From the NCBI RefSeq assembly GCF_000014745.1, contig NC_008347.1, forward strand, positions 1,249,501 to 1,313,500: a stretch of 64,000 nucleotides of DNA, in the 5' to 3' direction. The stretch is from Maricaulis maris MCS10 (lineage in GTDB: Bacteria > Pseudomonadota > Alphaproteobacteria > Caulobacterales > Maricaulaceae). A program made the translations under genes and the position numbers. Shown one piece after another: positions 4,200 through 7,095 of the stretch (its first letter is position 1; each line of letters begins with the position of its first letter). The notes below the pieces were generated by a model. The model was not told where the DNA came from. It saw nothing but the letters and a program-made list of their open reading frames with translations, and did not search any database.

Positions 4200-4769
4200 A
4201 TGGCGCAATCCCCGGAAGACATGGCGCGGTCGATGATCGCCAACATGCCGGAAAAGACCGGCAAACCGCTCGGCGACTGGGTCGCGATCGTCAAGGCGAG
4301 CGGGCTGGAAAAGCATGGCGAGATGGTCAAGCTGCTCAAGACCGAGCACGGCATGACGCATGGCTTTGCCAATCTGGTGGCGCATGAAGTGAAGAGCGGG
4401 GTCGTCTCGGCCCCGGCTGCCGCCACTGACCTGGTCGAAGCGCAATATGCCGGCGGCAAGGCCGGCCTGCGTCCGATCTATGATGCCCTGTCGTCCGCCG
4501 CGACCGGCTTTGGCGGCGATGTCGAACTCGCCCCGAAGAAAGCCTATGTCTCGCTGCGGCGGGCCAAGCAGTTCGGCCTGATCCAGCCCTCGACCAGGAC
4601 GCGGGTTGATCTCGGTCTCAATCTCAAAGGGGTCGAGCCCGCCGGTCGGCTGGAAGCGTCGGGCTCGTTCAATGCGATGTGCACCCATCGTGTCCGCCTG
4701 GACGGGCCGGGCGCGGTCGATGCCGAAGTGCTTGGCTGGCTCAAACAGGCTTATGAGGCGGCAGGCTAG
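4200..4769 (+). CDS. DUF4287 and DUF5655 domain protein
   Basis: A 189-residue cytoplasmic protein with two small domains. Residues 1-65 match DUF4287, with the KTGKPLGDWVAIVK and HGEMVKLLKTEHGMTHGFAN segments. Residues 85-187 match DUF5655, with YVSLRRAKQFGLIQPSTRTR and the C-terminal WLKQAYEAAG. Neither domain has an established function. It starts 3 nt after the AHSA1 stop codon, so it is the third gene of the ArsR operon. No terminator is obvious directly after it. Confidence 0.85.
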   Translation: MAQSPEDMARSMIANMPEKTGKPLGDWVAIVKASGLEKHGEMVKLLKTEHGMTHGFANLVAHEVKSGVVSAPAAATDLVEAQYAGGKAGLRPIYDALSSAATGFGGDVELAPKKAYVSLRRAKQFGLIQPSTRTRVDLGLNLKGVEPAGRLEASGSFNAMCTHRVRLDGPGAVDAEVLGWLKQAYEAAG

Positions 4770-4851
4770 GTGGACGGCGCCCGGTTTGCCACTGGACAGA
4801 CCTTGCGGGCGCGGGCATGCTTGCGGTGAAATTTTGTTGGAGAAAGGCGCC

Positions 4852-4992
4852 ATGCGTCTACTGGCAGGCAAAAACGTGCAGATGACCGGGGTGGCACGCA
4901 AGTGCGCGCCGATCCCTGCCGTGCGCCGTCTTCCCATCATTTCGATTACCACCGTCATGGCGCCTACAGGAGCGATGACAGCCACGACCTGA
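4852..4992 (+). CDS. Putative leader peptide of a threonine/isoleucine attenuator upstream of ilvA
   Basis: A 46-codon frame with a good GGAGAAAG ribosome site 6 nt upstream of its ATG. Its second half is rich in Ile and Thr: IISITTVMAPTGAMTATT closes the peptide. That fits ribosome stalling when Thr-tRNA or Ile-tRNA is scarce. CAGGAGCG (4967-4974), inside the frame and just after the ATC ATT TCG ATT ACC ACC cluster, is complementary to CGCTCCTG (5026-5033), the left arm of the terminator hairpin just before ilvA. This gives the two exclusive structures of a classical attenuator. A second frame through the same region is His-rich but has only a poor GTG start. The regulatory reading is inferred from layout. 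Confidence 0.7.
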   Translation: MRLLAGKNVQMTGVARKCAPIPAVRRLPIISITTVMAPTGAMTATT

Positions 4993-5022
4993 CCCCTTTG
5001 ACTTAGGTTTCGTGCAGTTTCA

Positions 5023-5054
5023 CCCCGCTCCTGGCCACAGGAGTGGGGTTTTTT
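5023..5054 (+). terminator. Intrinsic terminator (attenuator) in the ilvA leader
   Basis: CCCCGCTCCTG (5023-5033) pairs with CAGGAGTGGGG (5038-5048) with one G-U pair and a short loop, followed by six T residues (5049-5054). It ends 25 nt before the ilvA start codon, so it cannot be the end of an unrelated transcript without also blocking ilvA. An alternative pairing of 5026-5033 with 4967-4974 in the leader frame would disrupt it. Confidence 0.85.
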
Positions 5055-5079
5055 CTGCGCGGCATTCCGGAGACCGCCC

Positions 5080-6351
5080 ATGTCGCTAACTGCCCGTTCG
5101 ACAGCCCCTTTGCCAGACTGCCCACCGCAAGAAGCCACCGCGCTGTCTGCTGCGTTCGACCATGTCGACACGCTGCGGCGGGACGGGTTTGGCGGCATTC
5201 TGCGTGCCCCGATGGTCGCATCGCCGGTCCTGTCGGCGAGCGCGGGATGCGACCTGTGGGTCAAGCTGGAAAACCTTCAGGTCACCGGCTCGTTCAAGGA
5301 GCGCGGCGCGTTTGCCCGCATGGCCGCCCTCAGTGCGGATGAGCGCCGCAGGGGCGTTGTCGCGGCGTCGGCGGGCAATCATGCCCAGGGTGTGGCACGC
5401 AGCGCCGGGGCGATGGGTATAGCGGCCCGGATCTACATGCCGGTGGGAACGCCGACCGTGAAGGTCAATGCGACCCGCGCCCTGGGCGCTGAGGTCGAGT
5501 TGGCCGGCGATGATTTTGATGCGGCCAAGGCGCTTGCTGTCGCCGCAGCCGAGACCAGCGGTGCCGTCTTCATCCACCCCTTCGATGACCCTGTCGTGCT
5601 GGCCGGGCAGGGAACGGTGGCGATGGAAATGCTGGAGGACCAGCCCGACCTCGACGTGCTGGTCTTCCCGGTCGGCGGCGGCGGGCTGGCGGCGGGCGCC
5701 GGGCTGGCGGCGCGGCGGATCAAGCCGGACATCGAACTGGTGGGTGTGCAGTCCGACCTTTTCCCGGCCTTTGCCAATCTCTTTCACGACGCCGACCGGC
5801 CGGTCGGTGGTTTCACCCTCGCTGAAGGCATTGCCGTGCGTCAGCCCGGTGATCTGACCAGCGCGATATTGAAGACCCTGCTCGATGATGTCCTGCTGGT
5901 GGACGAGCGCCAGATCGAGCACGCGCTCAATCTCTTCATCGCGCAGATGCGGGTCCTGCCGGAAGGGGCGGGCGCTGTCGGGCTTGCTGCCGTCCTCGCC
6001 CACAAGCAACGCTTTGCCGGCAAGAAGGTCGGCCTCGTCCTGTCCGGCGGCAATGTCGATACAAGGCTCTTGTCATCGCTCCTGCTGCGCGACCTGGCCC
6101 GATCGCGCCGGCTAGCCCGCTTCCGCATCGAGCTGGTCGATATTCCCGGGCAGTTGTCGAGCGTGTCGGAGATCATCTCCGAGGCCGGTGGCAATGTCAC
6201 CGATGTCGCCTATCACAAGACATTCTCGGACCTGCCAGCCAAGGTGACCTATATCGATATCTCGCTGGAGGCGCAGGATGGCGCCCATATGGACCGGATC
6301 CAGGCGGCCCTGCAGGCGGCCGGCTTCCGGGTCGAACTGGCGGGCTACTGA
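5080..6351 (+). CDS. ilvA: Threonine ammonia-lyase (threonine dehydratase)
   Basis: PLP enzyme converting threonine to 2-oxobutanoate, the first committed step to isoleucine. 423 residues. The PLP lysine is K73 in VTGSFKERGA; SAGNHAQG and the phosphate-binding PVGGGGLAAG loop are also present. A C-terminal ACT domain (about residues 345-420, FRIELVDIPGQLSSVSEIIS) suggests allosteric control by isoleucine or valine. The single ACT domain resembles the shorter dehydratases rather than the E. coli biosynthetic enzyme with two regulatory repeats. The upstream Thr/Ile leader peptide and attenuator point to a biosynthetic role. The ATG at 5080 follows GGAGA 7 nt upstream. Confidence 0.93.
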   Translation: MSLTARSTAPLPDCPPQEATALSAAFDHVDTLRRDGFGGILRAPMVASPVLSASAGCDLWVKLENLQVTGSFKERGAFARMAALSADERRRGVVAASAGNHAQGVARSAGAMGIAARIYMPVGTPTVKVNATRALGAEVELAGDDFDAAKALAVAAAETSGAVFIHPFDDPVVLAGQGTVAMEMLEDQPDLDVLVFPVGGGGLAAGAGLAARRIKPDIELVGVQSDLFPAFANLFHDADRPVGGFTLAEGIAVRQPGDLTSAILKTLLDDVLLVDERQIEHALNLFIAQMRVLPEGAGAVGLAAVLAHKQRFAGKKVGLVLSGGNVDTRLLSSLLLRDLARSRRLARFRIELVDIPGQLSSVSEIISEAGGNVTDVAYHKTFSDLPAKVTYIDISLEAQDGAHMDRIQAALQAAGFRVELAGY

Positions 6352-6389
6352 GTTGATCTGCCCATCGGGCTTTGAAATGTCACATCCGG

Positions 6390-6405
6390 CCGTTACCGGT
6401 AACGG
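6390..6405. promoter_or_regulatory. Perfect 16-bp palindrome upstream of transaldolase, candidate operator
   Basis: CCGTTACCGGTAACGG is its own reverse complement and lies 36 nt before the transaldolase start. It contains the same GGTAACG/CGTTACC half-sites as the palindrome upstream of pyc, but joined in the opposite order. It may be the site of a LacI-like or other dimeric regulator of central carbon genes. Confidence 0.45.
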
Positions 6406-6441
6406 CAGCGAAATACACTGACCGACCGCGAGGAGCGCATC

Positions 6442-7095
6442 ATGAAATTCTTTGTCGACACGGCCGAAACCGCAGAGATCGCCGAGCTGGCTGAAGCCGG
6501 TCTGGTCGATGGTGTCACCACCAACCCGTCCCTGATCGCCAAATCAGGCCGTAACTTCCTCGAAGTGGTCAAGGAAATCTGTGATCTGGTCGAGGGACCG
6601 GTCAGCGCCGAAGTCACTGCGCTCGAAGCGCCGGCCATGATCGCCGAAGGCAAGAAGCTGGCCCTGCTGGCCGACAATGTCGTGGTCAAGCTGCCGCTGA
6701 CCTTTGAAGGTCTCAAAGCCTGCCAGGCGCTGACGGCCGAGAATATCCAGACCAATGTGACGCTGTGCTTTTCCGCCAATCAGGGCCTGCTCGCTGCCAA
6801 GGCCGGAGCGACCTATGTCTCGCCCTTCATCGGCCGGCTCGATGATCTTGGCGTTGACGGCATGGAGCTGATCGCCAATCTGCGGATGATCTTCGACAAT
6901 TACGCCTTCGACACCCAGATCCTGGCCGCTTCGATCCGTTCGGCCGACCACATCCAGCAATGTGCCCTGCTGGGCGCCGACGTCGCCACCGCCCCGCCCT
7001 CAGTCCTGAAAGGCCTGGTCAAGCACCAGCTGACCGACAAGGGCCTGGAAGCCTTCATGGCCGACTGGCAGAAGACGGGTCAGAGCATTCTCTAG
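6442..7095 (+). CDS. tal: Transaldolase (short, TalC/MipB type)
   Basis: A 217-residue TIM-barrel aldolase of the short transaldolase/fructose-6-phosphate aldolase family. It transfers dihydroxyacetone between sugar phosphates in the non-oxidative pentose phosphate pathway. MKFFVDTAE and [14 protein letters not shown] at the start and the Schiff-base lysine K83 in VVVKLPLT are diagnostic; SPFIGRLDD and ILAASIRS are also conserved. Sequence alone does not separate transaldolase from fructose-6-phosphate aldolase activity; transaldolase is the usual assignment in alphaproteobacteria. GAGGAGCG precedes the ATG. Its 3' end meets the convergent DUF2855 gene at a shared terminator. Confidence 0.93.

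Follow-up and report, generated by a model that had tools for sequence, protein, structure and literature searches.

The ilvA gene of Maricaulis maris MCS10 lies downstream of a short open reading frame and an intrinsic terminator, which raises the question of whether this arrangement controls the gene and which amino acid would set it. An earlier note on the window (the whole stretch of 64,000 nt analysed here, positions 1,249,501 to 1,313,500 of NC_008347.1) had proposed a threonine/isoleucine leader-peptide attenuator on the pattern of the enterobacterial thrL and ilv leaders. Examined together with related genomes, the window makes it very probable that ilvA is controlled by a ribosome-mediated transcription attenuator set by the supply of isoleucyl-tRNA.

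Leader frame, terminator and alternative pairings upstream of ilvA

The protein encoded by ilvA matched NF005600 and TIGR01127 above cut-off and contains PALP and ACT_4 domains. The 46-codon frame with its ribosome-binding site and the terminator, which ends 25 nt before the ilvA ATG, were confirmed at all the coordinates first described for them (Table 1). The upstream gene (DUF4287/DUF5655), on the same strand, ends at 4769. A consensus scan found no canonical sigma-70 site. In 13 of the 14 Maricaulis genomes with this ilvA, the CTGGAC block stands at a near-constant distance from the leader ATG, and the transcript probably starts just 5' of the leader frame, as placed by CTGGAC and the GCATG block. 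Downstream of ilvA, no terminator-like site was found between this gene and a fructose-6-phosphate aldolase-type gene (6351-6442), and the two may be cotranscribed in M. maris MCS10. Elsewhere in the window, a plus-strand ORF of 760 aa (487-2769) has an odd composition and resembles an antisense shadow cast by a gene on the minus strand.

Table 1. Features of the ilvA leader, in positions of the window
Feature	Position	Strand	Basis or value
Probable promoter: CTGGAC (-35 like, 4792-4797) and GCATG block about 17 nt on	4792..4820	+	
Ribosome-binding site GGAG of the leader frame	4839..4842	+	sequence
Leader peptide frame, 46 codons, MRLLAGKNVQMTGVARKCAPIPAVRRLPIISITTVMAPTGAMTATT	4852..4992	+	ORF; ATG 4852, stop TGA 4990-4992
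Control codons ATC ATT TCG ATT ACC ACC (isoleucine)	4936..4953	+	alignment of 14 leaders
Protector hairpin 1:2: GTCAT (4954-4958) with ATGAC (4975-4979), plus inner pairs	4954..4979	+	folds
Antiterminator 5' arm, CAGGAGCG	4967..4974	+	core GGA GCG 4969-4974, exactly five codons before the stop
Helix B over the leader stop codon: CACGACCT (4983-4990) with AGGTTTCGTG (5005-5014)	4983..5014	+	folds
Intrinsic terminator: 12-bp stem 5022-5033/5038-5049, loop 5034-5037, T tract 5049-5054	5022..5054	+	-24.5 kcal/mol
Antiterminator 3' arm, CGCTCCTG, identical with the terminator left arm	5026..5033	+	pairs with 4967-4974 in the fold without the right arm
ilvA, biosynthetic threonine ammonia-lyase with C-terminal ACT domain; predicted controlled gene	5080..6351	+	

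The terminator is the sole terminator-like site in 4400-5300; 0.7 such sites are expected from shuffling, and the scan alone is thus not significant. The 228-nt leader folded better than all 200 of its shuffles (z -3.6), and the duplex between the leader end and the left terminator arm was equalled in 17 of 2000 dinucleotide shuffles of this sequence. Because this single-sequence evidence is moderate, the relatives decide the case. In the predicted folds, the protector hairpin sequesters GGAGCG (-12.9 kcal/mol in the window, -7 to -13 in relatives), and helix B nests within the antiterminator; a stop-codon helix of other sequence is also predicted in relatives and in the leaders of ilvD described below. 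Both the protector hairpin and the stop-codon helix were absent from the earlier note. As modelled, protector hairpin, antiterminator and terminator form a classical three-state switch. The antiterminator of M. maris MCS10 is less stable than its terminator, a relation also seen in known attenuators, which makes the outcome a matter of kinetics.

In the mechanism that we propose, transcription would begin shortly before 4852, and the leader peptide would be translated behind RNA polymerase. With ample Ile-tRNA, the ribosome would pass the Ile codons and reach the stop codon, where either the protector hairpin forms or the ribosome itself masks GGAGCG; with GGAGCG unavailable, the terminator (5022-5054) would form and transcription would halt 25 nt before ilvA. 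Under a shortage of Ile-tRNA, the ribosome would stall at 4936-4947 and prevent the protector hairpin, GGAGCG (4969-4974) would pair with 5026-5031 of the left arm around helix B, and the antiterminator thus formed would let polymerase read into ilvA. A similar-looking leader before Streptomyces ilvB gave no response to control-codon changes (PMC1262725), which by analogy would count against reading the ilvA leader as an attenuator.

Isoleucine codons in the control segment

Nineteen Maricaulis genomes were searched, and 14 of them have this ilvA. Across the control segments of the 14 leaders, Ile accounts for 57 of 140 codons (41%) versus 4.6% in the genes of the window, with the 29 ORFs of the window serving as the reference for codon usage. 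The choice of codon is also skewed: ATT makes up 41 of the 57 control Ile codons versus 18% of Ile codons in the window genes, and GGA is used in 13 of 13 GGAGCG leaders versus 9.5% of Gly codons. The segment reads mostly S-I-I/T-I/T, and Ile is the only residue that is always enriched in it. Where the window has ACC ACC, relatives have ATT ATT/ATC (ISIII, ISIIT, SIIP); ACC at positions where these relatives encode Ile leaves the leader of the window poorer in Ile codons than most of its subgroup. From this alignment, the ACC ACC of the window appears to be largely a local change from Ile to Thr.

An attenuator that senses threonine, or threonine together with isoleucine, like enterobacterial thrL, would account for the ACC ACC in the control segment of the window, whose peptide ends ATT, and threonine is the substrate of the enzyme. 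We nevertheless regard threonine sensing as quite unlikely. Thr provides only 11 of the 140 control codons and is absent in several genomes, its sites are Ile, Pro or Gly in relatives, and it would be wasteful to induce a threonine-consuming enzyme when threonine is short. Isoleucine is the end product of the IlvA pathway and the feedback inhibitor of IlvA. Since Ile codons are enriched, Thr codons are few or absent and isoleucine is this end product, isoleucine is the likely signal of the ilvA attenuator; of the Ile/Thr control codons first proposed, the Ile part was thus borne out and the Thr part was not.

Conservation of the leader in Maricaulis

The leader frame, the Ile-codon cluster, the terminator and the pairing with its left arm were present in all 14 Maricaulis genomes with this ilvA. 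The frame has 41-49 codons, with the same length within each subgroup, and ends 83-105 nt before ilvA; a Shine-Dalgarno-like purine-rich stretch stands 5' of its ATG in most of the 14 genomes and is not evident in G011, the most divergent of them. Five codons lead from GCG (GTG in G011) to the stop codon without exception. GGA GCG itself occurs in 13 genomes, with AGG GTG at the same codons in G011, and, with few exceptions, GGA follows the control codons at a distance of 8-9 codons. Terminator stems with T tracts (-13 to -29 kcal/mol) were likewise found in every genome. When the stalled state was folded, with the RNA 5' of GGAGCG removed and the right terminator arm still untranscribed, R2:R3 was in the minimum-free-energy fold of 14 of 14 leaders. 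The protector hairpin is strong in subgroup 1 (that of the window), in G011 and in most of subgroup 2, and weaker in G003, G004 and G017. The complementarity of 4967-4974 to 5026-5033 claimed at the outset is real, and its eight perfect pairs are particular to M. maris MCS10; the conserved pairing is the 6-nt core GGAGCG:CGCTYC.

Covariation of the stems had been put forward as a check. The antiterminator core is invariant in the 12 genomes aligned, so covariation was silent there, and the compensatory case comes from one genome, G011, in which both partners are replaced (UAGGGUG:CGCCCUA, seven pairs, with CGCCCUA as left arm). G011 also has a new protector hairpin of 12 bp that contains its ATT ATC ACC control codons. 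A weak, sub-threshold match to Rfam Trp_leader was seen in the G011 leader. A covariance model built from 12 leaders, with G003 and G011 held out, recovered both, at 59.1 and 23.8 bits, respectively. In addition, each peptide was kept and its codons were redrawn by window usage; an antiterminator as strong as the real one arose in only 0.05% to 13% of redraws, depending on the sequence, so that the significance of the duplex in any single leader is modest. Combined by Fisher's method over five lineages (two larger ones and three of one member each), this gave p = 1e-4 when the two larger lineages were each represented by their worst member and 1e-5 with a chosen member. With 14 genomes and one compensatory replacement, leader-peptide attenuation through a mutually exclusive antiterminator and terminator, as the earlier note had it, is strongly supported.

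The peptide itself evolves differently in the two subgroups. In subgroup 1, its first half is free to change, with 174, 187 and 194 differences at the three codon positions, whereas subgroup 2 has a third-position bias of the coding type (41/38/122). The N-terminal half is not conserved between subgroups. These patterns bear on the idea that the main product is a trans-acting small peptide or small RNA and attenuation is secondary. Termination would release an RNA of about 230 nt, the frame is predicted to be translated into a peptide of 41-49 residues, and peTrpL/rnTrpL of Sinorhizobium are a known trans-acting leader peptide and RNA (PMC7298713). However, with an N-terminal half that differs between subgroups and lacks signs of purifying selection in subgroup 1, the conserved parts are those that cis control needs, and we hold a mainly trans-acting product to be very unlikely.

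A leader without any regulation, in which a plain terminator of the upstream gene is joined by a chance frame, would fit the single-sequence terminator scan, which was not above chance, and the position of the same-strand DUF4287/DUF5655 gene. We judge this highly improbable. The stretch between that gene and the leader contains the conserved CTGGAC block; although most of the peptide varies, the 14 genomes retain the frame, the Ile codons, the five-codon spacing and the complementarity; and a second copy before ilvD shows the same design. A metabolite-binding riboswitch, a T-box or a protein-binding leader could each operate a terminator/antiterminator switch, but this is barely credible here, as no Rfam family was significant on 4300-6500, no conserved structured domain was seen outside the frame, and the Ile cluster and codon-exact spacing would be left without explanation.

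A related leader before ilvD and comparison with known systems

With the covariance model of the ilvA leader, a second leader was found in M. maris MCS10 (G000:C1:345682-345801, minus strand, 39.8 bits). Located in front of ilvD in an ilvD-ilvC-ilvB operon, it encodes ...GLLLLVLVLITSSITGAVGAPA, with Leu, Val and Ile as control codons (GLLLLVLVLITSSITGA). The ilvD leaders contain GGAGCG, about five codons from the stop in most genomes, CGCTCC as the left arm of the terminator, and a helix of the CTGCC:GGCAG type over the stop codon; the ilvA leaders of G003 and G004 share GGAGCG...CTGCCTGAC with the ilvD leader. When a leader profile without the terminator was used, several ilvD leaders scored above all 64 kb of control DNA, although weakly (E ~0.0002 to 0.04). 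Six further Leu/Val/Ile-rich ilvD leaders were seen, some of them in Maricaulis genomes without this ilvA. No leader was found directly before ilvB or ilvC in Maricaulis, where the operon begins at ilvD.

Outside the genus, a scan of 46 non-Maricaulis ilvA loci, nearly all alphaproteobacterial, gave no convincing comparable leader, nor did the further non-Maricaulis ilvA loci that were inspected. The expectation that relatives keep the frame and the alternative pairing was thus borne out within Maricaulis (14 of 14) and failed in other genera. The covariance model matched 190 of 398 genomes of the order, mostly through a shared terminator shape, and matches were counted only if they were full-length and had a leader frame. 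In other genera of the family and order, such leaders stand before ilvD or ilvC. Nine of those noted in the family, ending in GAAAPV, GAVVPA and the like, lie directly before ilvC/ilvD. This placement before either gene implies that the genes of the operon were reordered behind a leader that kept its place at the front. A different family of the order has four leaders with Thr/Ile/Met codons (e.g. SKTTMIIMTPTSIAGRTRAT) and a terminator, which precede pairs of small proteins that lack annotation; one of these proteins is ACT-like (sub-threshold match to Pfam ACT_5).

Because a related ilvD leader occurs in the same genomes, the ilvA attenuator appears to be a duplicate at genus level, cut down to Ile. 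We lean towards an origin inside Maricaulis by duplication of the ilvD-ilvC-ilvB leader, with its control codons reduced from Leu/Val/Ile to Ile alone. The simplest reading of these sequences would be a duplication and a subsequent loss of Leu and Val codons; convergence of the two leaders on a shared design is the somewhat less likely alternative. If duplication is true, one ancestral switch gave rise to two separately tuned sensors, one for the common pathway and one for the Ile-only entry enzyme, and subfunctionalisation of a leader-peptide attenuator is visible at the codon level.

The enterobacterial leaders ilvL (of ilvGMEDA) and thrL follow a three-state logic of 1:2, 2:3 and 3:4 pairings, with control codons in a leader peptide. 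The Maricaulis ilvA leader has the same logic, with no sequence relationship demonstrated, and it most resembles the ilvD-ilvC-ilvB leader of its own genome; the parallel first drawn with thrL/ilv therefore holds for mechanism and fails for kinship. In enterobacteria, ilvA comes last in an operon shared with other genes, whereas Maricaulis ilvA has its own leader in which Ile codons dominate. The gathering threshold of Rfam Thr_leader (RF00506) was not reached, with no match in 4300-6500; the best related leader was an ilvD leader of another genus, at 45.8 bits against 55. In Firmicutes, an Ile T-box before ilv genes provides isoleucine-specific control by tRNA charging, with the tRNA read by RNA. 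The physiological idea is the same, but the sensor there is RNA and in Maricaulis would be a translating ribosome, and the T-box covariance model gave no match up to E = 5 in 4300-6500.

The closest counterpart by order is Caulobacter crescentus, in which ilvBN/ilvIH has a leader with branched-chain codons, a rho-independent terminator and control by the charging of Ile- and Val-tRNA (Tarleton et al. 1994, as described in PMC4117421). This alphaproteobacterial attenuator is of the same leader and terminator type; as far as that description goes, by which alone the two are likened, it controls acetolactate synthase and senses Ile and Val, whereas the Maricaulis leader would control ilvA. Our search of the open literature turned up no stand-alone alphaproteobacterial ilvA with an attenuator. 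Ribosome-mediated attenuation is already known for ilv genes of enterobacteria and, by that account, for Caulobacter ilvBN (PMC4117421), and Maricaulis ilvA is a well-supported, predicted new case, in which a stand-alone alphaproteobacterial ilvA would have been given its own isoleucine-specific attenuator. In front of two different genes, the branched-chain leader core GGA GCG / CGCTCC has been kept, with different sensing codons. The ilvA leader and the ilvD-ilvC-ilvB leader, which share GGAGCG, CGCTCC and a stop-codon helix and differ in the Leu/Val/Ile codons of the latter, thus form a natural pair in which to study how the specificity of an otherwise shared RNA switch is set by its control codons.
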